From assembly GCA_007695365.1 (NCBI GenBank), contig REDV01000097.1, forward strand, positions 1 through 45,170: a stretch of 45,170 nt of DNA, written 5' to 3'. Made by a program: the position numbers and the translations under genes. This stretch comes from Cryomorphaceae bacterium (GTDB taxonomy: Bacteria; Bacteroidota; Bacteroidia; Flavobacteriales_D; SKUL01). The notes below the pieces were generated by a model. It made no database searches and was not told where the DNA came from. It worked only from the letters and a program-made list of their open reading frames with translations. Below are positions 6,348-43,106 of the stretch, in pieces (the stretch's first letter is position 1; each line of letters starts with the position of its first letter).

Positions 6348-7253
6348 TCAGGCACCTACCTTATCGGTTTTTTTGTTGCGCGTTCGCTGCTGCTCGATAA
6401 AGCGGATGATCTCACCGGCAATATTCTTCCCTGTGGCTTCTTCAATTCCTTTCAGCCCCGGAGATGAATTAACCTCAAGCACCAGTGGTCCACGGTTGCT
6501 TCGAATCATATCTACACCGGCAACATTGAGCCCCATGGCCCTGGCCGCGTTCACAGCCAGCTGGCGCTCTTCTTTGGAAAGCCGAATACGGGTTGCATGC
6601 CCTCCGCGGTGCAAGTTGGAGCGAAACTCGCCCTCGGCACCCTGGCGTTTCATAGAGCCCACTACCTTTCCACCTACCACAAAGGCGCGAATATCGGCTC
6701 CTCCGGCTTCTTTGATAAACTCCTGAATGAGCATATTGGCGTTGAGTCCGTGAAAAGCCTCAATCACTGCATTGGCAGCTTTGCGTGTTTCGGCCAATAC
6801 CACTCCGATTCCCTGGGTTCCTTCCAGCAGCTTGATCACAACAGGCGCTCCACCGATTTCCTTGAGCAACGAATCAATCTGCCGTGGGTTACGGGCAAAA
6901 ATGGTTTTGGGAATGCCGATGTCATGCCGCGAAAAAATCTGCATGCTTCGAAGTTTATCACGCGAACGAACAATCGAGATGGAGGAGTTAGCCGCGAAGA
7001 CACCCATCATTTCAAATTGCCGCACTACCGCAGTTCCATACATGGTAACCGAGGCTCCAATTCGTGGAATAACAGCGTCGAATCCCTCCAGTCTTTGTCC
7101 GTTGAAATACACCATGGGGTTTTGCTTTTCCTTAATCATGGCACAATTCAGGTGATCGAGCACCACGGCTTCATGCCCCAGTTCCTGGGCTGCCTCCACC
7201 AATCGGCGGGTGCTGTAGAGTTTTGCGTTCCTCGACAGGATTGCAATTTTCAT
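6348..7253 (-). CDS. rimK: RimK-family alpha-L-glutamate ligase (ATP-grasp)
   Basis: The 301 residues match the RimK length and layout. An N-terminal pre-ATP-grasp domain starts MKIAILSRN and has a PRIGAS element. The ATP-grasp core has the [13 protein letters not shown] loop, the QEFI hinge and the metal-binding VDMIRS...[13 protein letters not shown] segment. RimK adds glutamate to the C-terminus of ribosomal protein S6 in enterobacteria; related ligases modify other acceptors. The start overlaps the stop of the upstream retropepsin-like gene by four bases, so the two are co-translated. RimK-peptidase pairing is known elsewhere (RimABK of Pseudomonas), which supports a shared modification/trimming role. 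The exact acceptor here is inferred. Confidence 0.9.
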
Positions 7254-7845: not shown

Positions 7846-10800
7846 ATGTATCGCAAACAACACATATTACTTAGGATCAAGGCTATAGCAATAATCTCCT
7901 TGAGCTTGTATAGCCCTGTTGTAGCGCAGGATTGCGACAGTAATGTGCCTCATTTTGATGTGGACCTTTCCGGTGATCCCGGAGGACTGTTCCTAAGCCC
8001 ATCGGTTCAGCGCCTGGGAAACTGCTGCGGAACAAGCCATCCTGACAGATGCATTTCATTCAGCATAACCCTTCACGATGACGCAGTAGGAATCATCTTC
8101 GATATCTGCGAAGGAGCTGTACCCCCCGGTGCTTTGTTTTACCAAATTGACTGCGGGCCACCCGTGGCTGTGGGAAACGTGCTTTGTCTGGACGGCCCCG
8201 GACCTCATCAACTCACCTTTTGCAAACCGGGCAACAATCAGAATGTGTATTGCATCACATCTGTGCCTGCGCCCGCGGTGGGTCCGCCACAGGTTGCCAG
8301 TGATGGCTGTACGGCAGATATCTACGTGGTAGGACTAGAGCCTTCCACCATTCAATGGACATCGGTGGTACCCGATGCACCCGGCACCTACAACAACCTG
8401 CTCAGCTGCACCCAATGCGAAAACCCCACGGTAACCGCCCCGGCTGTTTTTCCACCTTTCGTGGATTTTATGGTATGTGGTCAAACCATCGGAGGGTGCG
8501 CCGTAACGCCCCACTGCGATACTGTTAGGGTTTACTTTGAGCAATCGCTGGAGGTTAACATTGCCCCGGAAGATCCCGTCATCTGTTTCGGCTCATTGGG
8601 TACAGATGTTACAGCGGTAGGGAACGGAGGGTTTCCTCCTTACACATTTACCTGGAGTACCGGAGATACCGGTGAAACCGTATGGATTGAAGAGCCGGGT
8701 ACCTACAACGTAACGGTTACTGACACCAGCGACTGCCCGCCTGCCTCCTATACTTTTGTGGTTGGAAGCTACGAATTACCAATCACAGTTGATGCCGGCG
8801 AAGACCTTGTAGTTTGCGAAGACACAGAATCAACCCAACTCAGTGCTATAACCTCAGGCACTGACAACGGATTGTGGAGCGGTGGATCGGGTAGTTTTAT
8901 ACCTTCTGACAGCGACCCCAACGCGAGTTATGCGCCCCACCCGGATGAGGTGATGGCCGGGCAGGTAACCCTCACCTACACGCTTTATCCGGATGGAGGC
9001 TGCCCAGGCAACTCAGACAGTCTCACCATTTACTTTGCAACATTCAACGCCGAGGTTCAGGCCCAAGTTGCGCATGTGTCGTGTTTTGGCTTGAATGACG
9101 GCAGCATTTCGCTGGATATTGACGGCAACTGGCCGCCATACACGGTGGAATGGGTGAATCAGGACATCACCGGAACGGAGCTTCTCAACTTAGCTCCGGG
9201 AACCTATCAGGCTCATATCTCCAATGCGCTGGGATGTACAGAATCCATTGAATACATTATTACATCACCCGAATTGCTTGAATTTGTTGTAGGCGAAGTG
9301 CAGGATGTTACTTGTTTCGGAGCATCTAATGGAACGGCATCAGTTGTGACAAGCGGTGGAACAGAGCCTTACACATTTGTTTGGACAGGGTTAACTGCCA
9401 CAGGCAATGAGGTTCAGAATTTACCGGGCGGAGTTTATGACGTTACCGTGACGGATGCAAATGGCTGTGAAGCAGAAATTTCAATTGAAATTGAAGAACC
9501 TGATTTACTCTGGGTAGAATTGACCGGTGATACGCTCGTATGTCCCGATACAGAAACACAGCTCGTTGCAACAACAGGTGGTGGCACCGGCGGCATCCAC
9601 TTCCACTGGTCTCACGGTTTGCCCAACGCTTCGTCAGTTACTACTTCCATTCAGGAACCCACAGTGTTCAGCCTTTTTGTATCCGATGAGAATGGGTGCA
9701 TCTCTGGAGTTACCACTTTTGCCGTTGACGTGGTACTGATGGATAGTGACTTGTTGATGACGCAAGTGAGCAATCCGGTTTGTTCGGGCGGAAACATCAG
9801 TATAAGCGCTGACTATCCCGGTCCTCACCCACCCTATACCTACTCCTGGAGCCACGGACTTCCCTCTACGGCTGGTCCGCACGCAGTGCAGCCCGGGGAG
9901 ACAACCACGTACAGTGTGGAGGTGAGCGACTATTGCGGAAACGCTGTTTCGGCAGACCTCGTTGCCCTCGTATGGCCGCTGCCCTCGGCTGCCCTTCTCG
10001 AAAAGAGTGATGTAACCTGTCATGGGATGAATAACGGTACAGCCAACACAATGGTAACAGGAGGCTCGCCGGGCTATTTCTATCAATGGTCGGATGGAAT
10101 TAACCACGGTGCTCAGGCCACCAACCTTGCTCCCGGTCAGTATTCAGTACTCATTACCGACATTCATCAGTGTCCTGATAGTCTCGAGTTTTTCATTGAC
10201 GAACCGGAGCCCTTGATGCTCAGCGCAACTTCAGACACATTGGTTTGCCCCGGCGATTCTTTCAATCTTTCGGCCAACGCAACAGGGGGAATTGAGCCCT
10301 ACACCTTTTCATGGAGTCACAACTTTGGCAATGCTCCCTCGCATAGCGTTCAGCTTTCAGAAAGTGCGGTGATTACTGTAAGTGTAACCGATTCATCAGG
10401 GTGTGAAACCCCTGTTGTTGAGCTCCCCGTTACGGTGATTAATTTCGTTCCGGAATTGTTGCAAATCACTCCCAACCAAGCAATTTGTTCTGGAGAAAGC
10501 ACAACTCTTACAGCTCATTACAACGGAAATCATCCGCCTTATCATTACAGTTGGAGCACTCTACCTGCCGGCTTTGGTCCACATGTAGTTTCACCCACAA
10601 CCACCACTACATATCACCTTGAGGTAACCGATATTTGCAACAACGTATTGGATGCTTCTACCCAGGTGGTGGTGCACCCGCTGCCTGCGGCCATGCTGCC
10701 ACCTCTGATTGAGGAAGGTTGCGCCCCCCTCCAAGTTGTATATCACGATCCCCACAACAACCCCGAAAGCCATTCATATTTGTGGACTATTGACGAGGCC

Positions 10801-11481
10801 CTCAACGTGGGTGGTCAACCATTCAACTACACCTTTCAGTCTCCCGGCGTCTATTCCATTTCCGTTCAGGTTACGAGTGTACACGGCTGTCAATCTGAGG
10901 GTGAAACTTCAGGATTGGTTATCGTAAGACCCTCTCCAGTGGCAAGCTTCAGTGCAAATCCGTGGGAGGCGGGAATCGATGAACCCGAAATTCAGTTCTT
11001 TGATCAGAGTCAGGGAAACATCACGTCGTGGACCTGGGATTTTGGCGATGGAAACACCAGCGAAGAGCAACACCCCCTGCACCACTATCCGGATACTGGA
11101 TACTTCGGTGTGAAGCTGGTGGTTGAAAATGCCTTTGGTTGCATTGATAGTCTGCTGAGAAGCGTTCGCATCAAACCCGTCTATGAAATTATTATTCCCA
11201 ACGCATTTACCCCTGGCACAGGCGGCAATGGCTACTACAACCCGGCCGACATCAGCAACGACATCTTCTACCCCTTTGCCGATTATGTTGAACAATTCAG
11301 AATGAGCATTTTTAATCGCTGGGGCGAGCTCATATTTGAAAGCAAAGACATCCGCTTCGGCTGGAACGGAACGTACCGAGGCGAGCCTTGTCCTCAGGAC
11401 GTGTACGTGTACAAAATTGAATTCACCTTCAGTGATGGCGAAAATATCACCCGCGTAGGCGACATAACCCTGTTCAGATGA
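7846..11481 (+). CDS. Giant SprB-repeat/PKD cell-surface protein with T9SS type B (CHU_C) sorting domain
   Basis: This 1211-residue secreted protein has a signal peptide (residues 1-28, ending SPVVAQ). A cysteine-rich N-terminal region follows, then SprB-type repeats with the VxCFG/VTCHG...N-G-T...PY-W...G-Y-V-TD-GC pattern near residues 408, 487 and 719, plus related HSWSH-type modules (YTYSWSHGLP, YTFSWSHNFG). A PKD domain (WTWDFGDGN) lies at about 1030-1108. The C-terminal gliding-motility-associated domain begins at about 1117 (IIPNAFTPG...FNRWGELIFES...W-G...YVYKI) and is the type B sorting signal. Proteins of this group are exported by the T9SS and act as surface adhesins. The downstream PorP/SprF gene overlaps by four bases, as expected for a type B cargo with its dedicated partner. 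Confidence 0.9.
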   Translation: MYRKQHILLRIKAIAIISLSLYSPVVAQDCDSNVPHFDVDLSGDPGGLFLSPSVQRLGNCCGTSHPDRCISFSITLHDDAVGIIFDICEGAVPPGALFYQIDCGPPVAVGNVLCLDGPGPHQLTFCKPGNNQNVYCITSVPAPAVGPPQVASDGCTADIYVVGLEPSTIQWTSVVPDAPGTYNNLLSCTQCENPTVTAPAVFPPFVDFMVCGQTIGGCAVTPHCDTVRVYFEQSLEVNIAPEDPVICFGSLGTDVTAVGNGGFPPYTFTWSTGDTGETVWIEEPGTYNVTVTDTSDCPPASYTFVVGSYELPITVDAGEDLVVCEDTESTQLSAITSGTDNGLWSGGSGSFIPSDSDPNASYAPHPDEVMAGQVTLTYTLYPDGGCPGNSDSLTIYFATFNAEVQAQVAHVSCFGLNDGSISLDIDGNWPPYTVEWVNQDITGTELLNLAPGTYQAHISNALGCTESIEYIITSPELLEFVVGEVQDVTCFGASNGTASVVTSGGTEPYTFVWTGLTATGNEVQNLPGGVYDVTVTDANGCEAEISIEIEEPDLLWVELTGDTLVCPDTETQLVATTGGGTGGIHFHWSHGLPNASSVTTSIQEPTVFSLFVSDENGCISGVTTFAVDVVLMDSDLLMTQVSNPVCSGGNISISADYPGPHPPYTYSWSHGLPSTAGPHAVQPGETTTYSVEVSDYCGNAVSADLVALVWPLPSAALLEKSDVTCHGMNNGTANTMVTGGSPGYFYQWSDGINHGAQATNLAPGQYSVLITDIHQCPDSLEFFIDEPEPLMLSATSDTLVCPGDSFNLSANATGGIEPYTFSWSHNFGNAPSHSVQLSESAVITVSVTDSSGCETPVVELPVTVINFVPELLQITPNQAICSGESTTLTAHYNGNHPPYHYSWSTLPAGFGPHVVSPTTTTTYHLEVTDICNNVLDASTQVVVHPLPAAMLPPLIEEGCAPLQVVYHDPHNNPESHSYLWTIDEALNVGGQPFNYTFQSPGVYSISVQVTSVHGCQSEGETSGLVIVRPSPVASFSANPWEAGIDEPEIQFFDQSQGNITSWTWDFGDGNTSEEQHPLHHYPDTGYFGVKLVVENAFGCIDSLLRSVRIKPVYEIIIPNAFTPGTGGNGYYNPADISNDIFYPFADYVEQFRMSIFNRWGELIFESKDIRFGWNGTYRGEPCPQDVYVYKIEFTFSDGENITRVGDITLFR

Positions 11482-12470
11482 TGCGCTTTATTGTGATATT
11501 GCTTTTTATAGCGCTGTTCACCGATGAGGCGGTGGCCCAGGACGTTCAATTTTCTCAACCCTATAATACGCCACTTTTTCTGAATCCGGCGTTTGCAGGA
11601 CACACCGGCGGTAACAGAATATCCACCGTGTACCGCAATCAATGGCCTGGAATTGAGCACAACTACCAGGCAATGGGGGCAGGTGCCGATTTTCATTTGG
11701 GTGGGGTAAACGGAGGTCTTGGAATTACCTTTGTTCGGGATGTTGCCGGAACCCACAGATTGAGCAATACCCTGGCCGCTTTTCAGTACAGCCAGCACAT
11801 TAAGCTCAGCAAAAAATCGCATCTCGCGGTGGGCGTACAGGCAGGTTACGGACAACGAAGTTTTGACGACAGCAATCTGTTTTTCTCCGATCAGGTCATC
11901 AACCAAACCAGCACCAGCTACGAAGTTCAAAACCTCTTCCCGGTAACTCATTTCGGAGATGTTTCCGCCGGAGTACTATACTACCGTGGTGATTCGTGGC
12001 TGGGCGTTTCCTTGCACCACATCAACCAACCCAACCAATCGTTGCTTGGCGCAGAAGACAGGCTCCCGGCAAAATTCTCTGTACACGGGGGCTGGGTACT
12101 GCCCTTTCATCAGCTCTACGCAAGACCGGGTAACAGAATGGTTCGTTTTCTTTTTAATTACAAGTCACAAGGAAACTGGGATCAGCTCGACTTAGGAGGT
12201 ATGTACACCATTTGGGGAATCAACCTTGGGGTTTGGTACAGAGGAATACCTCTGAAGCCCTATCAACCGGGTTACCAAAACAATGAATCCATCGTAATGC
12301 TCTTTGGTTACGAGCTTCCGCAGGGACTGGGGTTTGCATACAGCTATGACCTTACCATCAGTCGTTTGGCCGGACACAGCGGTGGAGCGCACGAAATTTC
12401 TGCGTACTACGAATTCAATCAGCGGCCAAAGCGCCCCAGAAAACGTATCGTACCATGCGCCAAGTTTTAG
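11478..12470 (+). CDS. PorP/SprF-family type IX secretion system outer-membrane protein
   Basis: The 330 residues start with a signal peptide (ending AVAQ) and the family signature DVQFSQPYNTPLFLNPAFAGHTG. The rest has the alternating pattern of an outer-membrane beta-barrel of about 300 residues. SprF-type proteins are needed for secretion or surface attachment of the type B cargo encoded beside them, for example sprB-sprF in Flavobacterium johnsoniae. The start overlaps the adhesin stop (ATGA), so the two genes are coupled and probably work as a pair. Confidence 0.9.
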   Translation: MMRFIVILLFIALFTDEAVAQDVQFSQPYNTPLFLNPAFAGHTGGNRISTVYRNQWPGIEHNYQAMGAGADFHLGGVNGGLGITFVRDVAGTHRLSNTLAAFQYSQHIKLSKKSHLAVGVQAGYGQRSFDDSNLFFSDQVINQTSTSYEVQNLFPVTHFGDVSAGVLYYRGDSWLGVSLHHINQPNQSLLGAEDRLPAKFSVHGGWVLPFHQLYARPGNRMVRFLFNYKSQGNWDQLDLGGMYTIWGINLGVWYRGIPLKPYQPGYQNNESIVMLFGYELPQGLGFAYSYDLTISRLAGHSGGAHEISAYYEFNQRPKRPRKRIVPCAKF

Positions 12471-14016: not shown

Positions 14017-14532
14017 ATGTTGACCAACCGTTCAAAAGACCTTAAGCTCAGTCATTTTTTTCCGTTTATGACTGTTATTACTTTTTTGTCGCCATTGGGT
14101 GTATTGGGGCAAATACAATCGACTGAACTGCCTATTCATTTGAGAAACACTTCTGTTTGCGATTTGATAAACGTCCAACTATTTTGCTACATGGATGATG
14201 ATTGCAATCCTTCTAACGCTCAATCTTCAGGGGCTATTTCAATTCCATCAGGAATTATGGAGAATCTTCCAGGTTGTCCTGCGGGCTACCCGTATCCTGC
14301 GTTTGTTGAATTTGAGTTTGATGGCTCTTCAGGAACCCACTTCATTACCTTTGACCCTAATATACCTAACGACTGCGCTGGTTTAGTTGATTGTGAAAAC
14401 TACAGCATACCTTTTGCCTATCACGATGGCTCAATAAATACCAGTTGCATGGGTCAAAATGGGCAAATTAGAGCCAATGATTTTGGGACAGGCTCAACAC
14501 ATTGTGTTATCTGGTTTAAGTTTGACCCGTGA
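14017..14532 (+). CDS. Eight-cysteine small secreted protein, copy 1 (unknown family)
   Basis: This 171-residue protein has a signal peptide that ends at VLGQ, followed by IQSTELPI. The mature part has eight cysteines: SVC, LFC, DDC, PGC, NDC, VDC, TSC and THC. It ends in CVIWFK plus three residues. The protein at 39981-40433 shares the QIQST start, all eight cysteines in the same order, CAGL-DC-NY and the CVIWFK end. I do not recognise the family. In both places it is followed at once by a BspA-like T9SS protein, which suggests a functional pair, perhaps a small disulphide-rich partner of a surface protein. A weak TAAATTTA box lies at 13969-13976. Confidence 0.8.
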   Translation: MLTNRSKDLKLSHFFPFMTVITFLSPLGVLGQIQSTELPIHLRNTSVCDLINVQLFCYMDDDCNPSNAQSSGAISIPSGIMENLPGCPAGYPYPAFVEFEFDGSSGTHFITFDPNIPNDCAGLVDCENYSIPFAYHDGSINTSCMGQNGQIRANDFGTGSTHCVIWFKFDP

Positions 14533-14551
14533 AAACTATTTTCTTGTTTAT

Positions 14552-16258
14552 ATGCCTATTTTAGTGATTTTTACTTTGAAATATTCACACTCCATTCGCC
14601 AAACATTACTCGCATTCTTCCTGACATTACTCACAGGCTTTACAATAGCCCAGTCTGCATTTGTAACGACATGGAATACGGAGCACTTAGGGGTATCCGA
14701 TAACCACTCGGTGAGGATTCCGGTGCAGACACAAATCACTTCCAACCCTGACTATTTCTATAATTTTGAAATAGACTGGGGAGATGGCGTGATAGAATCC
14801 TATGAGGGGCCTGGAAGCCAACTTTTGGTTGAACACACTTACCCTGAACCGGGTGTATACACCATCAGCATCTCAGGAGTTTTTCCGCGGATTAACTTTG
14901 GGCAGCCGTCAACAGACCTATCAAAAATTCTTGAGGTACAGCAATGGGGTAATATTCAGTGGGAAAGTTTTGGCACTGCATTCAGGGGGTGTAACTTTTT
15001 GTCAATACCTGCCACCGACACTCCTGATTTATCAAATGTTACAGATATGAATGGGGCTTTTTGGGGATTTATGGATGCAGGTGCGGTGAACAGTTCTTTT
15101 TCTGAATGGGATGTCTCAAATGTTACTAACATGAATAATTTATTCCGGCAATCTACATTCAATCAACCTATTGGAAACTGGGATGTATCGAACGTCACCT
15201 CAATGAATTCCTTGTTCTACAACGCATTTGCTTTTAACCAACCCATTGATGCCTGGGATGTCTCCAGCGTTACCAATATGACCAATATGTTCTGTAATTC
15301 GGTATTTAACCAACCCATAGGAAGCTGGGACGTTTCAAGCGTTACTTCTATGAACACAATGTTTTTGGGGGAGTTTGGAGCGATGATTACACCATTTAAT
15401 CAACCCATAGAAGGCTGGAATGTATCCTCGGTTGAAAACATGGGGTTTATGTTCAGCAATTGCATGTTTAACCAGCCTATTGAAGAGTGGGATGTTACCA
15501 ACGTGCAATCTATGCAAGGTATGTTTCAAGGGGCCTCATTTTTTAACCAGTCATTGGGATTGTGGGATATATCAACAACAACCAATGTCGGAATGATGTT
15601 GAATGAATCTGGAATCGATCCCTGCAACTACAACAAAACACTTGAAGGTTGGTCTGGCGTGCAACCTCAGCAAGGCCTGAACCTTGGAGCAGCAGGTGTG
15701 CATTTCACCGAAATTGGCGAACCCTATCGCGAAATACTGATCAACGATTTTCAATGGACGATTAACGATGCCGGCGTCACGCAACTTCCGGATCTTGTGG
15801 TAACCATCAATCAATTCGGGCCCGACATTGAAGTGCTTGTTTCGGGCGGCAGCGGGGTCTATCAATACCTGTGGTCAGGTCCTGACGATTTTTCATCCAC
15901 CGGCTCCTTCATTACCGCAGAAATACCAGGAATTTATACCGTTTGGGTGAGTGACGGTTGCTCTGAATGGACGGAGGATATAGAGGTGTTGACCGTAGGT
16001 GTTGACAAAAATGAGTTAAACCCGGTGACTCTTTATCCGAATCCCGCAAGTGATCAGGTTTTCATTCAATCCAATAGTCAGGGATTGTTGCATGTGGAAA
16101 TATTCAACCCGACCGGAGCGCTCGCATCAAGTCATTCGATAGAAGCGGAATTTGCTGCGATAGACATCCAAAACCTATCACCCGGGTTGTACATCTGCCG
16201 TATCACGGTGAAAGGCGGTGTTGAGACTTCCAATCTGAAAATGTTGGTCTCAAGGTAG
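14552..16258 (+). CDS. BspA-like DUF285-repeat surface protein with T9SS type A sorting domain, copy 1
   Basis: From ATG 14552 (19 nt after the upstream stop) the protein has 568 residues and a signal peptide ending FTIAQS. An N-terminal PKD-like domain follows (IDWGDGVIESYEG, VEHTYPEPGVYTISI). Then come about seven repeats of about 25 residues with the DUF285/BspA leucine-rich pattern FNQPIGxWDVSxVTxMxxMF. A conserved cap (CNYNKTLEGW) leads to an SprB-like module (GGSGVYQYLWSGP) and a type A sorting domain (LYPNPASDQV...LSPGLYICRI). BspA-type repeats mediate adhesion in other bacteria. The protein is closely similar to 40491-42323, which has about nine repeats. An in-frame earlier start at 14459 would overlap the upstream gene and hide the signal peptide. 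Confidence 0.88.
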   Translation: MPILVIFTLKYSHSIRQTLLAFFLTLLTGFTIAQSAFVTTWNTEHLGVSDNHSVRIPVQTQITSNPDYFYNFEIDWGDGVIESYEGPGSQLLVEHTYPEPGVYTISISGVFPRINFGQPSTDLSKILEVQQWGNIQWESFGTAFRGCNFLSIPATDTPDLSNVTDMNGAFWGFMDAGAVNSSFSEWDVSNVTNMNNLFRQSTFNQPIGNWDVSNVTSMNSLFYNAFAFNQPIDAWDVSSVTNMTNMFCNSVFNQPIGSWDVSSVTSMNTMFLGEFGAMITPFNQPIEGWNVSSVENMGFMFSNCMFNQPIEEWDVTNVQSMQGMFQGASFFNQSLGLWDISTTTNVGMMLNESGIDPCNYNKTLEGWSGVQPQQGLNLGAAGVHFTEIGEPYREILINDFQWTINDAGVTQLPDLVVTINQFGPDIEVLVSGGSGVYQYLWSGPDDFSSTGSFITAEIPGIYTVWVSDGCSEWTEDIEVLTVGVDKNELNPVTLYPNPASDQVFIQSNSQGLLHVEIFNPTGALASSHSIEAEFAAIDIQNLSPGLYICRITVKGGVETSNLKMLVSR

Positions 16259-20599: not shown

Positions 20600-20961
20600 A
20601 GCATTTCATGTCAGAACTACAAGCGTAATCCTTGCAGAACAAGTTTACATTTCGCGGCAGGATTACCTGCGGTGATCCTTGCAGCTCCGTGAAGGGAATC
20701 AATCCCTGATTTTGCTCCAACCCTGTTGGAGCAAAATGGGCTTTTTTTCATCCCTGAACGCTCAAGCGAGCTTGGCGTTCACAAAGTAGTTTCAGGATTA
20801 CTTGAGTGATCCTTGCAAAACAAGTTTGCGTCTCGCAAAAGGATTACTCGCGTGATCCTTGCAGCTCCGTGAAGGGAATCAATCCCTGATTTTGCTCCAA
20901 CCCTGTTGGAGCAAAATGGGCTTTTTTTCATCCCTGAACGCTCAAGCGAGCTTGGCGTTCA
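20600..20961. repeat. Two tandem copies of a unit of about 180 bp
   Basis: The blocks 20672-20781 and 20852-20961 are identical over 110 bases at an offset of 180, and the bases before each (from about 20608 and 20790) are clearly similar. Each unit holds a hairpin TTTTGCTCCAA-CCCTG-TTGGAGCAAAA followed by GGGC and seven Ts, and a second hairpin around GCTCAAG-CGAG-CTTGGC. No ORF in it looks real. The identity suggests a recent duplication. Confidence 0.85.
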
Positions 20962-39980: not shown

Positions 39981-40433
39981 ATGAAAACAACTTTTTCTCT
40001 TGTAATTCTTATTGGCCTTACCATCGTTTCATTCGGCCAGATTCAATCTACTGACCAACCGATTGAGATTCGTAACTACACCTTATGTACAATAAGATTT
40101 ATTGTGCATTGTTCAAGCAATGGTGATTGTGATCCAATGGGAACAACAGCTTTGGCAGAGCAGAGTATCGGGCCCAATGACAGTACCTCACTGAACCAAT
40201 GCACCGGCCATTTCGCTTTCATTAAATTTTCATTTGATCTATGGGCAACATCTCATGTAATTGGTTTCGATACGAATTTACCAAATATTTGTGCTGGCTT
40301 GGAAGATTGTGATAATTACGACATGCCCTATGAATATCACGTGGGGGACATCGATGAAGACTGTATTGGGGAGGATGGTGAAATCCGGGCAAATAGGGGA
40401 GAATCGGGATGTGTTATTTGGTTTAAACCATAA
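39981..40433 (+). CDS. Eight-cysteine small secreted protein, copy 2 (unknown family)
   Basis: From ATG 39981 the protein has 150 residues and a signal peptide ending IVSFGQ, followed by IQSTDQPIEI. Its eight cysteines (TLC, VHC, GDC, NQC, ICAG, EDC, EDC, SGC) fall in the same order as in 14017-14532, and both end in CVIWFK. The eight-cysteine pattern suggests four disulphides in the mature secreted form. The family is unknown to me. The BspA-like gene follows after 57 bases. A TTG start at 39945 is possible but would put 12 extra residues before the signal peptide. Confidence 0.8.
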   Translation: MKTTFSLVILIGLTIVSFGQIQSTDQPIEIRNYTLCTIRFIVHCSSNGDCDPMGTTALAEQSIGPNDSTSLNQCTGHFAFIKFSFDLWATSHVIGFDTNLPNICAGLEDCDNYDMPYEYHVGDIDEDCIGEDGEIRANRGESGCVIWFKP

Positions 40434-40490
40434 CCGCCAAAATTGAATTTTGAATCAAATTTTCGAATTGGTCAACTTAAATCGTGTACA

Positions 40491-42323
40491 ATGAAAATTA
40501 TTCTTAATAAACTACCCTACAGAAGTTCAAACATGCGCTGCATTATACCATTGATACTATTATTCGTTTCCTGCGGATTGGGATTAAACGGCCAAATTCC
40601 GTTTATAACAAAATGGAAAACAAACAATCCTGGCATCTCCGATAATTTTACTGTCCGGTTTTCAGTGGAAAGCCAAAGTGTTTACGATTTTGAAATAGCC
40701 TGGGGTGATGGTGTCATTGAAAACTATGCAGGGCAGGGCAGCGAGCTGTCTGTGGAGCATACCTATGCCGATACCGGGGTTTATACCATTGAAGTAAGTG
40801 GCACCTATCCCCGAAGCAGATTCAATGAGTCAGGAGATAAGTTCAAAATTATTGAAATTGTACATTGGGGCGATATCGAATGGCAAAGTTTCGAAAGCGC
40901 ATTCAGAGGATGCGAAAACCTTGCTATGGTAGCCGATGACGTGCCCGATTTGTCTGGTGTAAACGACCTGAGCTATATGTTCTGGGGTGTGGACAGTATC
41001 AATCCTTCTATTTCTAACTGGGATGTTTCTACCATCACAAATATGGAAAACATGTTTACGGCAGCTTCTTCGTTCAACCAACCCATTGGCAATTGGGATG
41101 TGTCGAATGTAACAGATATGAGTTGTATGTTCTGCGCCAATCAACTGTTCAATCAACCACTGAACTCTTGGGATGTTTCAAATGTGGTCGATATGGCCAG
41201 TTTGTTTGGCTCTGCATGGTCATTTAACCAACCGCTGGATCAGTGGGATGTTTCCAGCGTAACCGACATGAGCGGAATGTTTCAGGGAACTCAGTCTTTT
41301 AATCAACCCATTGGAAATTGGAATGTTTCGAATGTGGAGAGCATGAGCCAAATGTTTATGAATGCTTCGGCGTTTAACCAACCGCTGGATGATTGGAATA
41401 TTTCGAACGTAACAACCATTAACAATATGTTTTGGAACGCTACGGCATTCAATCAACCGCTGAATTCATGGGATGTGTCCAGTGTAGATGATAACGGTTT
41501 TGTCAACATGTTTCGGAATGACGTTTCGTTTAACCAGCCACTTGATCAATGGGATGTCTCAGGCATCAATACGATGAGGAATATGTTTTCTGGCGCGGTG
41601 GCGTTTGATCAGTCACTTGAAACCTGGGACGTTTCATCTGTTACCGATTTTGAGGGAATGCTCGATAACTGTGGAATGAACCCCTGCTACTACAACAGTA
41701 CATTAGAAGGTTGGTATAATGCGGCTCCACAAACCAACATGAACCTGGGGGCTGTGGGGATGGAATATACTGAAGAAGGTGAGGCATTCCGCCAGGCATT
41801 GATCAATGATTTTTCTTGGTCAATAACTGGTGATGCCCAGACCGTTTTACCGGCTTTTGAAGTAAATTATGTGTTGAATGGAACCGAAATCGCTATTGTG
41901 GCCAATGGTGGTTCCGGAACTTATACTTTTTTGTGGACAGGCCCCGGTGGCTTTTCTTCGGAAGACACTGTGATCACGGCGACAGAAAATGGATTGTACA
42001 CCGTTGTGGTAAGTGATGGTTGTGAGCTCTTGGAGGAAACCATAGACGTGCTGACTGTTGGCATTGAACCTGTTGAGGGTTCATCGGTAGCTGTGTTTCC
42101 CAATCCTGTCAGCCGGATTCTCAATATCAATCTCAGCCATTTTACCGCCAACGCCGGAGTACAGATTCACAACCTTTCCGGTCAATTGCTACGGGAGGTT
42201 CAATTGCAAAGTTCAGAAAATAAGGTTGATGTGAGTTGGCTACATCCCGGGGTTTATCACTGTATTATCAGAAATATGGACGGTGAAAGAATTGAACAGT
42301 TTCGTTTTGTGAAAATCAACTGA
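40491..42323 (+). CDS. BspA-like DUF285-repeat surface protein with T9SS type A sorting domain, copy 2
   Basis: From ATG 40491 the protein is 610 residues. The signal peptide is best formed from the second ATG at 40533 (MRCIIPLILLFVSC...NGQ). The layout repeats that of 14552-16258: a PKD-like domain (IAWGDGVIENYAG, VEHTYADTGVYTIEV), about nine BspA/DUF285 repeats of about 25 residues (FNQPLDQWDVSSVTDMSGMF), the CYYNSTLEGW cap, an SprB-like module (GGSGTYTFLWTGPGG) and a type A sorting domain (VFPNPVSRIL...LHPGVYHCII). The two proteins differ mainly in repeat number, 9 against 7. It is probably exported to the cell surface for adhesion. Confidence 0.88.
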   Translation: MKIILNKLPYRSSNMRCIIPLILLFVSCGLGLNGQIPFITKWKTNNPGISDNFTVRFSVESQSVYDFEIAWGDGVIENYAGQGSELSVEHTYADTGVYTIEVSGTYPRSRFNESGDKFKIIEIVHWGDIEWQSFESAFRGCENLAMVADDVPDLSGVNDLSYMFWGVDSINPSISNWDVSTITNMENMFTAASSFNQPIGNWDVSNVTDMSCMFCANQLFNQPLNSWDVSNVVDMASLFGSAWSFNQPLDQWDVSSVTDMSGMFQGTQSFNQPIGNWNVSNVESMSQMFMNASAFNQPLDDWNISNVTTINNMFWNATAFNQPLNSWDVSSVDDNGFVNMFRNDVSFNQPLDQWDVSGINTMRNMFSGAVAFDQSLETWDVSSVTDFEGMLDNCGMNPCYYNSTLEGWYNAAPQTNMNLGAVGMEYTEEGEAFRQALINDFSWSITGDAQTVLPAFEVNYVLNGTEIAIVANGGSGTYTFLWTGPGGFSSEDTVITATENGLYTVVVSDGCELLEETIDVLTVGIEPVEGSSVAVFPNPVSRILNINLSHFTANAGVQIHNLSGQLLREVQLQSSENKVDVSWLHPGVYHCIIRNMDGERIEQFRFVKIN

Positions 42324-42551: not shown

Positions 42552-43106
42552 TCACCCCACTAAAATAACATTTTCAAGCAAACCCTGCTCACCGGCATAA
42601 TCCAGTGCGCTACTGTACAGGTAATGATGTGGCTCGGCAACAAAACCTGCTTCAACCGGATTTTGATGGATATAATTGACTTTTTCATCTATCACTGCAT
42701 TGCTCCACAATTCTATCGGCTTATTGTCATGCCTCCAAAACTGATAGTGTTTTACATTTGAAGATTTTTCTGCAGCCTCTTTGAAATGTTCTAACATCCA
42801 TTCTTTTCTGCTTTCTTGTGGATGGACTTTTATTGCTTCAACGATCTTTCCGCTGGTGAATCGTTTCATATCGCCGAGTACATTGTCTGGTTTTTGGTTT
42901 TCTGTAGTTCTGAATACCAAATGAACGTGATTGGTCATAATGCACCAAGAGAAAATCTCCATCCCCTTTTCGTTTTGACAAAACCGTAAGCTATCAAGTA
43001 CGATATCGCGGTAGTCGCGTCGGCTAAAGACATCAATCCAATCTATTACCGCGAAGCTTACAAAATAAACTCCTTTCGGGTTGTGGAATTTATGACTTCT
43101 GGACAT
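42552..43106 (-). CDS. REP-associated tyrosine transposase (RAYT, Y1/IS200-like)
   Basis: This 184-residue protein has the N-terminal RSHKFHNPKGVYFVSF, the HUH metal motif in MTNHVHLVF and the downstream tyrosine in VNYIHQNPVEAGFV, with the usual FW(R)...ELW spacing. RAYTs are single-domain, usually single-copy relatives of IS200/IS605 transposases that are linked to REP palindromes. Here the gene is bracketed by inverted 40-bp repeats (42466-42505 and 43165-43204), giving a compact unit of about 740 bp. A truncated sister lies at 39609-39704. Confidence 0.92.
   Translation of the reverse strand: MSRSHKFHNPKGVYFVSFAVIDWIDVFSRRDYRDIVLDSLRFCQNEKGMEIFSWCIMTNHVHLVFRTTENQKPDNVLGDMKRFTSGKIVEAIKVHPQESRKEWMLEHFKEAAEKSSNVKHYQFWRHDNKPIELWSNAVIDEKVNYIHQNPVEAGFVAEPHHYLYSSALDYAGEQGLLENVILVG

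Follow-up and report, generated by a model that had tools for sequence, protein, structure and literature searches.

Here we describe a two-gene cassette of Flavobacteriales in which a gene for a small secreted eight-cysteine protein is followed by a gene for a surface protein of the type IX secretion system (T9SS), and which has the appearance of a surface system in two parts, partly phase-variable and so far undescribed. The cassette occurs twice in the stretch of DNA that was analyzed, 45,170 nucleotides from a Cryomorphaceae bacterium (contig REDV01000097.1 of assembly GCA_007695365.1; hereafter the window), and recurs in related genomes with partner genes of quite different kinds. We favor, at a probability of about 0.55, the reading that this is a two-component surface cassette in which the small secreted protein serves the T9SS protein encoded after it, and which is often phase-variable through its first gene. 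To our knowledge, no dedicated partner is known for T9SS substrates with type A sorting tails. A conserved small gene that swaps partners ahead of such substrates suggests that dedicated accessory proteins exist for them, and the repeats at its start codon point to repeat-driven surface switching in Flavobacteriales; both ideas are testable in the cultivable species Cryomorpha ignava.

The window cassettes and the small protein

The window carries two linked pairs of small and large genes, at 14017-16258 and 39981-42323, all four on the forward strand. In the first pair, the small gene (14017..14532, 171 aa), identified by its translation, its identity to copy 2 and its match to the family profile, is separated by 19 bases from the large gene (14552..16258); in the second, 57 bases separate the small gene (39981..40433, 150 aa) from its partner (40491..42323). 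Both pairs are real open reading frames, and the duplicated unit, with the order and spacing given in the initial annotation, stands. The two small proteins are 41% identical over 152 residues (E 4e-37, pairwise comparison), have signal-peptide-like N-termini and, as had been noticed at the outset, share all eight cysteines together with the QIQST and CVIWFK motifs. The large proteins are 43% identical (E 9e-158, pairwise comparison). The duplication behind the two pairs is old, judging by amino-acid identities of ~41-47%.

Both large proteins combine DUF285/PARCEL repeats with a type A sorting domain of the T9SS. DUF285 scores above cut-off in each (E 2e-56 and 9e-84), as do tandem 25-residue DUF285/TIGR02167 repeats and the sorting domain itself (Por_Secre_tail/TIGR04183; 43.9 bits in Pfam, 40-43 bits in NCBIfam). 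A hydrophobic N-terminus is visible by eye, and export by the T9SS is predicted. These assignments confirm part of the domain list first proposed for the large proteins; its PKD and SprB-like modules appear in Pfam only as sub-threshold matches, which score 14-17 and 11-21 bits where the cut-offs are 23.5-28. Neither the small family nor DUF285 occurs anywhere else in the genome (3.52 Mb, 99.98% complete), which excludes a chance pairing. A third match to the small family in the same genome, C47, lies antisense to a BatD-like gene and was set aside as chance. Just downstream of the second cassette, on the minus strand at 42552-43106, is a transposase-like ORF, by eye of the Y1/REP-associated type, which is a possible mobility agent. 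The intergenic DNA at 20628-20961 contains a 180-base unit repeated 1.9 times with a 93% match.

The small protein belongs to no named family, in agreement with the initial annotation: no member matched Pfam or NCBIfam, and the family profile returned nothing from the PDB sequences up to E 10. Neither a T9SS sorting tail nor a lipobox was found in it, so that a surface location is putative, and PF11751, the PorP/SprF-like barrel, gave no Pfam match to it versus 197.6 bits for the PorP/SprF gene at 11478-12470. Two AlphaFold models of small proteins, of pLDDT 63 and 56, both show an all-beta sandwich. The top fold match of these low-confidence models was the Vps13 adaptor-binding repeat (Z 8.7 and 9.3); in view of the model confidence we rejected it as a specific identity and read it as no more than a widespread beta-sandwich. 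Next, at Z 5-7, came MoHrip2, pilin domains, aegerolysins and thaumatin-like proteins, among them TLXI (Foldseek E 0.067, VIA Z 6.2) and pleurotolysin A (VIA Z 6.4), both below Z 8 and obtained with the model of pLDDT 63. The predicted protein weakly resembles thaumatin-like, aegerolysin and actinoporin-type sandwiches in being all-beta and in aligning, from N- to C-terminus at VIA Z 5-7, with these small disulfide-rich or membrane-binding proteins. It differs in having no sequence match to them, and with models of low confidence the likeness may reflect just a common arrangement. With correspondingly low confidence, we describe it as a putative small beta-sandwich, probably disulfide-rich, and assign it nothing more specific and no toxin-like function.

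Linkage to T9SS genes and exchange of the partner

Profile searches of the order and its near relatives revealed another seven small genes, spread over four related genomes of Flavobacteriales: one (L048) in the Flavobacteriales MAG CSSed162cmB_100 (G001), of the same genus as the window genome, one (L049) in MAG29 (G045), two (L050 and L098) in Cryomorpha ignava QSSC 1-22 (G014), and three in tandem (L188) in G050. The five cassette-bearing genomes are mostly drafts or MAGs. Directly downstream of each of the nine small genes, on the same strand, lies a gene with a type A tail, and the sorting domain scores above cut-off in partners from the other genomes as well. The gaps within the nine pairs are +19, +57, +6, -8, +24, +6, +12, +12 and -1 bases, the overlap of -8 at L050 being counted from the ATG at 6419. 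As a background rate, ~3-10% of ORFs in the sampled DNA carry a type A tail. Whole cassettes have been duplicated both in the window, where there are two, and in G050, where there are three. In the latter (L188:3388-11097), the sorting tails of the three tandem units look nearly identical and the ectodomains are 37-54% identical, which suggests gene conversion or recombination at the tails.

The partners fall into three ectodomain classes: class A, the DUF285 proteins, found in the window only; class B, of ~635 aa, in G001, G014 and G045; and class C, of 650-689 aa, in G014 and G050. Class B and C partners are without DUF285 repeats, and the sorting domain is their sole significant match. Outside that tail the classes are mutually unlike (best cross-class BLASTP E 0.1, hhalign ~1%), so the link between the small gene and a T9SS gene has survived an exchange of the partner. 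The genus shared by G001 and the window genome provides the clearest case: since the two use classes B and A, respectively, the small gene has apparently been conserved while the ectodomain after it was exchanged. Each partner class forms one clade in the tree of small proteins, the three labels requiring two changes, the minimum, a number as low in 1 of 200 shuffles. Cysteine columns are common to class A and class B small proteins, and within classes the identities of small and large proteins correlate (Pearson 0.90, for pairs that are not independent). Full-length class B partners are present in exactly 3 of 60 relatives, which are the genomes with class-B small genes, and each of them adjoins its small gene. 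At L049 the class B partner has a frameshift just after its signal peptide and is shortened there (L049:2181-2251), which is either an assembly error or real decay.

The initial annotation had tied the small protein to a BspA-like, that is DUF285, neighbor. This specific tie is not supported, in that seven of the nine small genes have a different T9SS partner and that a small-family gene is absent from all other DUF285 loci fetched from 199 genomes of the order, at least 13 of these loci including the gene start. The expectation that homologues would always sit beside DUF285/T9SS genes is correct for the T9SS tail in the nine pairs and, outside the window, incorrect for DUF285. Homologues with no BspA-like neighbor, named in advance as evidence against the idea, exist in those seven pairs and in three distant solo relatives. 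Conversely, the exchange of partners, the repeated co-duplication and the matching divergence strengthen the broader proposal of a joint action of the two products, although not in its BspA-specific form.

The three distant relatives, L164, L167 and L170, were retrieved from the fetched loci with the nine-sequence profile at E 5e-7 to 2e-8, and profile-profile comparison gave 96% probability, partly through the signal peptide. They are secreted solo proteins without a T9SS neighbor, which indicates that a partner is dispensable for the existence of the small protein and therefore that service to a T9SS protein was not the sole origin of the family. An MtaB-like methylthiotransferase gene adjoins the small gene in two distant genomes (L007:5211-6533 and L170:3-1238), marking either an ancestral site or a coincidence. 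A contig scan returned three loci with three relatives as query and no match with the two window proteins as query, and a plasmid search for the small family gave no match. Weak profile matches at L008, L009, L014, L032, L035-L039, L042 and C82 were inspected and judged to be chance.

Repeats at the start codon of the small gene

Straight after the start codon, six of the seven small genes outside the window carry a short tandem repeat, namely (TCCT)10.5, (CA)7.5, (TC)15.5, two (CT) tracts, 21 and 14 bases long, and (AC)6.5, which is short. The two tracts of Cryomorpha ignava lie at L050:5922-5963 and L098:7167-7181. These repeats are coding, have units that are not multiples of three and are positioned to switch between full length and a stub: in every tract, gain or loss of one unit toggles the product between a stub of 10-33 aa and a secreted precursor of 136-175 aa. 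Four of the genes are OFF as assembled, with the upstream ATG out of frame, and in each of them one unit restores the precursor with its basic start and hydrophobic core; the two ON genes are turned into stubs by one unit. Repeat lengths in assemblies can be wrong, and the frame-shifted copies may use an in-frame TTG or GTG start instead. With limits of at least 13, 18 and 16 bases for units of 2, 3 and 4 bases, respectively, 11 such repeats were counted in 1.61 Mb of the four genomes, six of them in the seven small genes and five outside. From the outside density ~0.001 would be expected in the small genes. Because the limits were set after some tracts had been seen, this number serves as a description, but the excess is much too great to be affected by that choice.

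Taken together, the repeats and the frame states suggest that most small genes of the relatives should switch ON and OFF at random in living cells by slipped-strand mispairing. No start-proximal repeat was found in either window small gene (14017 and 39981), and phase variation is thus predicted for the family elsewhere and not for the window. Nor is switching special to the family, as G014 also has a repeat within the signal peptide of a secreted protein unrelated to it. Two such loci were seen in Cryomorpha ignava, each in the signal-peptide region of another secreted gene with an interrupted ATG frame: a (CT)10 tract at L139:17160-17180, and a 7-base unit repeated six times at L136:19717-19759. 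This species may possess a sizeable set of switchable surface genes.

Repeat-based phase-variable genes of Haemophilus, Neisseria and Campylobacter likewise have di- or tetranucleotide tracts after the start codon and a frame switched by one unit. The cassettes differ in belonging to T9SS systems of Flavobacteriales, in that their switching is predicted, and in the window copies without a repeat. A review mentions invertase-based switching for Bacteroides and does not mention Flavobacterium (PMC11868660), and among the open-access papers searched we found no report that surface genes of the T9SS or of Flavobacteriales are switched by repeats.

Proposed function and its alternatives

In the proposed scheme, the first gene would produce a small Sec-exported, disulfide-rich beta protein without a sorting domain of its own, and the second a large ectodomain whose type A tail would direct it to the surface through the T9SS. 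The most likely role of the small protein is to bind the large protein of its own pair, whether in the periplasm or at the surface, as a folding partner, a cap or a ligand-binding subunit; it would then either exit the cell with it or remain behind as a periplasmic escort. In most relatives, slipped-strand mispairing would turn the small gene ON and OFF, and in the OFF state the large protein would probably be lowered too, through the tight or overlapping junction. The Bacteroidota-type promoter motif TTG-N-TAnnTTTG was seen upstream of one relative only and at neither window cassette, and for this reason we base no operon claim on it. More speculatively, the cassette could provide type A proteins with an accessory factor of a novel kind, a phase-variable and partner-specific beta-sandwich escort or cap, such that switching of the escort rather than of the adhesin diversifies the flavobacterial surface; we regard this extension as tentative and somewhat doubtful.

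Two alternatives deserve to be weighed, both of which we consider unlikely and about equally so. The small gene might be a phase-variable leader cistron that carries the repeat and gates translation of the T9SS protein, its product having a minor or independent role. First-codon repeats in most relatives, a frame toggled by a single unit, and junctions tight or overlapping (-8, -1) as in translational coupling would all fit this scheme. However, a conserved, cysteine-patterned mature protein of 120-150 aa, with cysteine columns held in common by class A and B members, far exceeds the needs of a leader; moreover, the window copies retain both genes without a repeat, solo relatives exist, and in G014 a secreted protein with no leader has the repeat within its own signal peptide. 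The second alternative is plain co-regulation, in which an independent secreted lectin-like or binding protein would share an operon with the T9SS protein for attachment or nutrient capture and never contact it. The solo relatives are in keeping with this, as are the generic beta-sandwich prediction and its weak resemblance to the folds of thaumatin-like proteins, aegerolysins and pilins. Against it stand the clades specific to each partner class, a divergence that correlates with that of three unrelated partners, and a strict one-to-one pairing and order in all nine cases. Coincidental neighborhood is highly improbable: T9SS tails are frequent and the window pairs do have common ancestry, but the pairing extends over nine of nine genes and three unrelated partner classes, and every full-length class B partner has a small gene next to it.

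For the two-component reading, the nearest analogy is provided by the SprB-SprF-like type B pairs, in which a T9SS-sorted surface protein is likewise encoded beside a dedicated accessory gene. Dedicated shuttles have been demonstrated experimentally for type B pairs, whereas in Flavobacterium johnsoniae the type A tails (TIGR04183) rely on PorV as a shared shuttle (PMC12618676); anchoring is treated in PMC9143113. Unlike these pairs, the cassettes have type A tails, their accessory protein is small, soluble and secreted rather than an outer-membrane barrel, and its gene precedes that of the substrate. The DUF285/PARCEL motif is known for its patchy distribution among surface proteins (PMC2996958), and the window large proteins contain its canonical repeats, as in proteins annotated "BspA family leucine-rich repeat surface protein"; they differ from the other fetched DUF285 loci of related genomes in having the small gene beside them. 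The window itself has a true example of the type B pairs, at 7846-12470: a classic type B T9SS adhesin with SprB repeats, PKD and a CHU_C tail, the gene for which overlaps a PorP/SprF gene.
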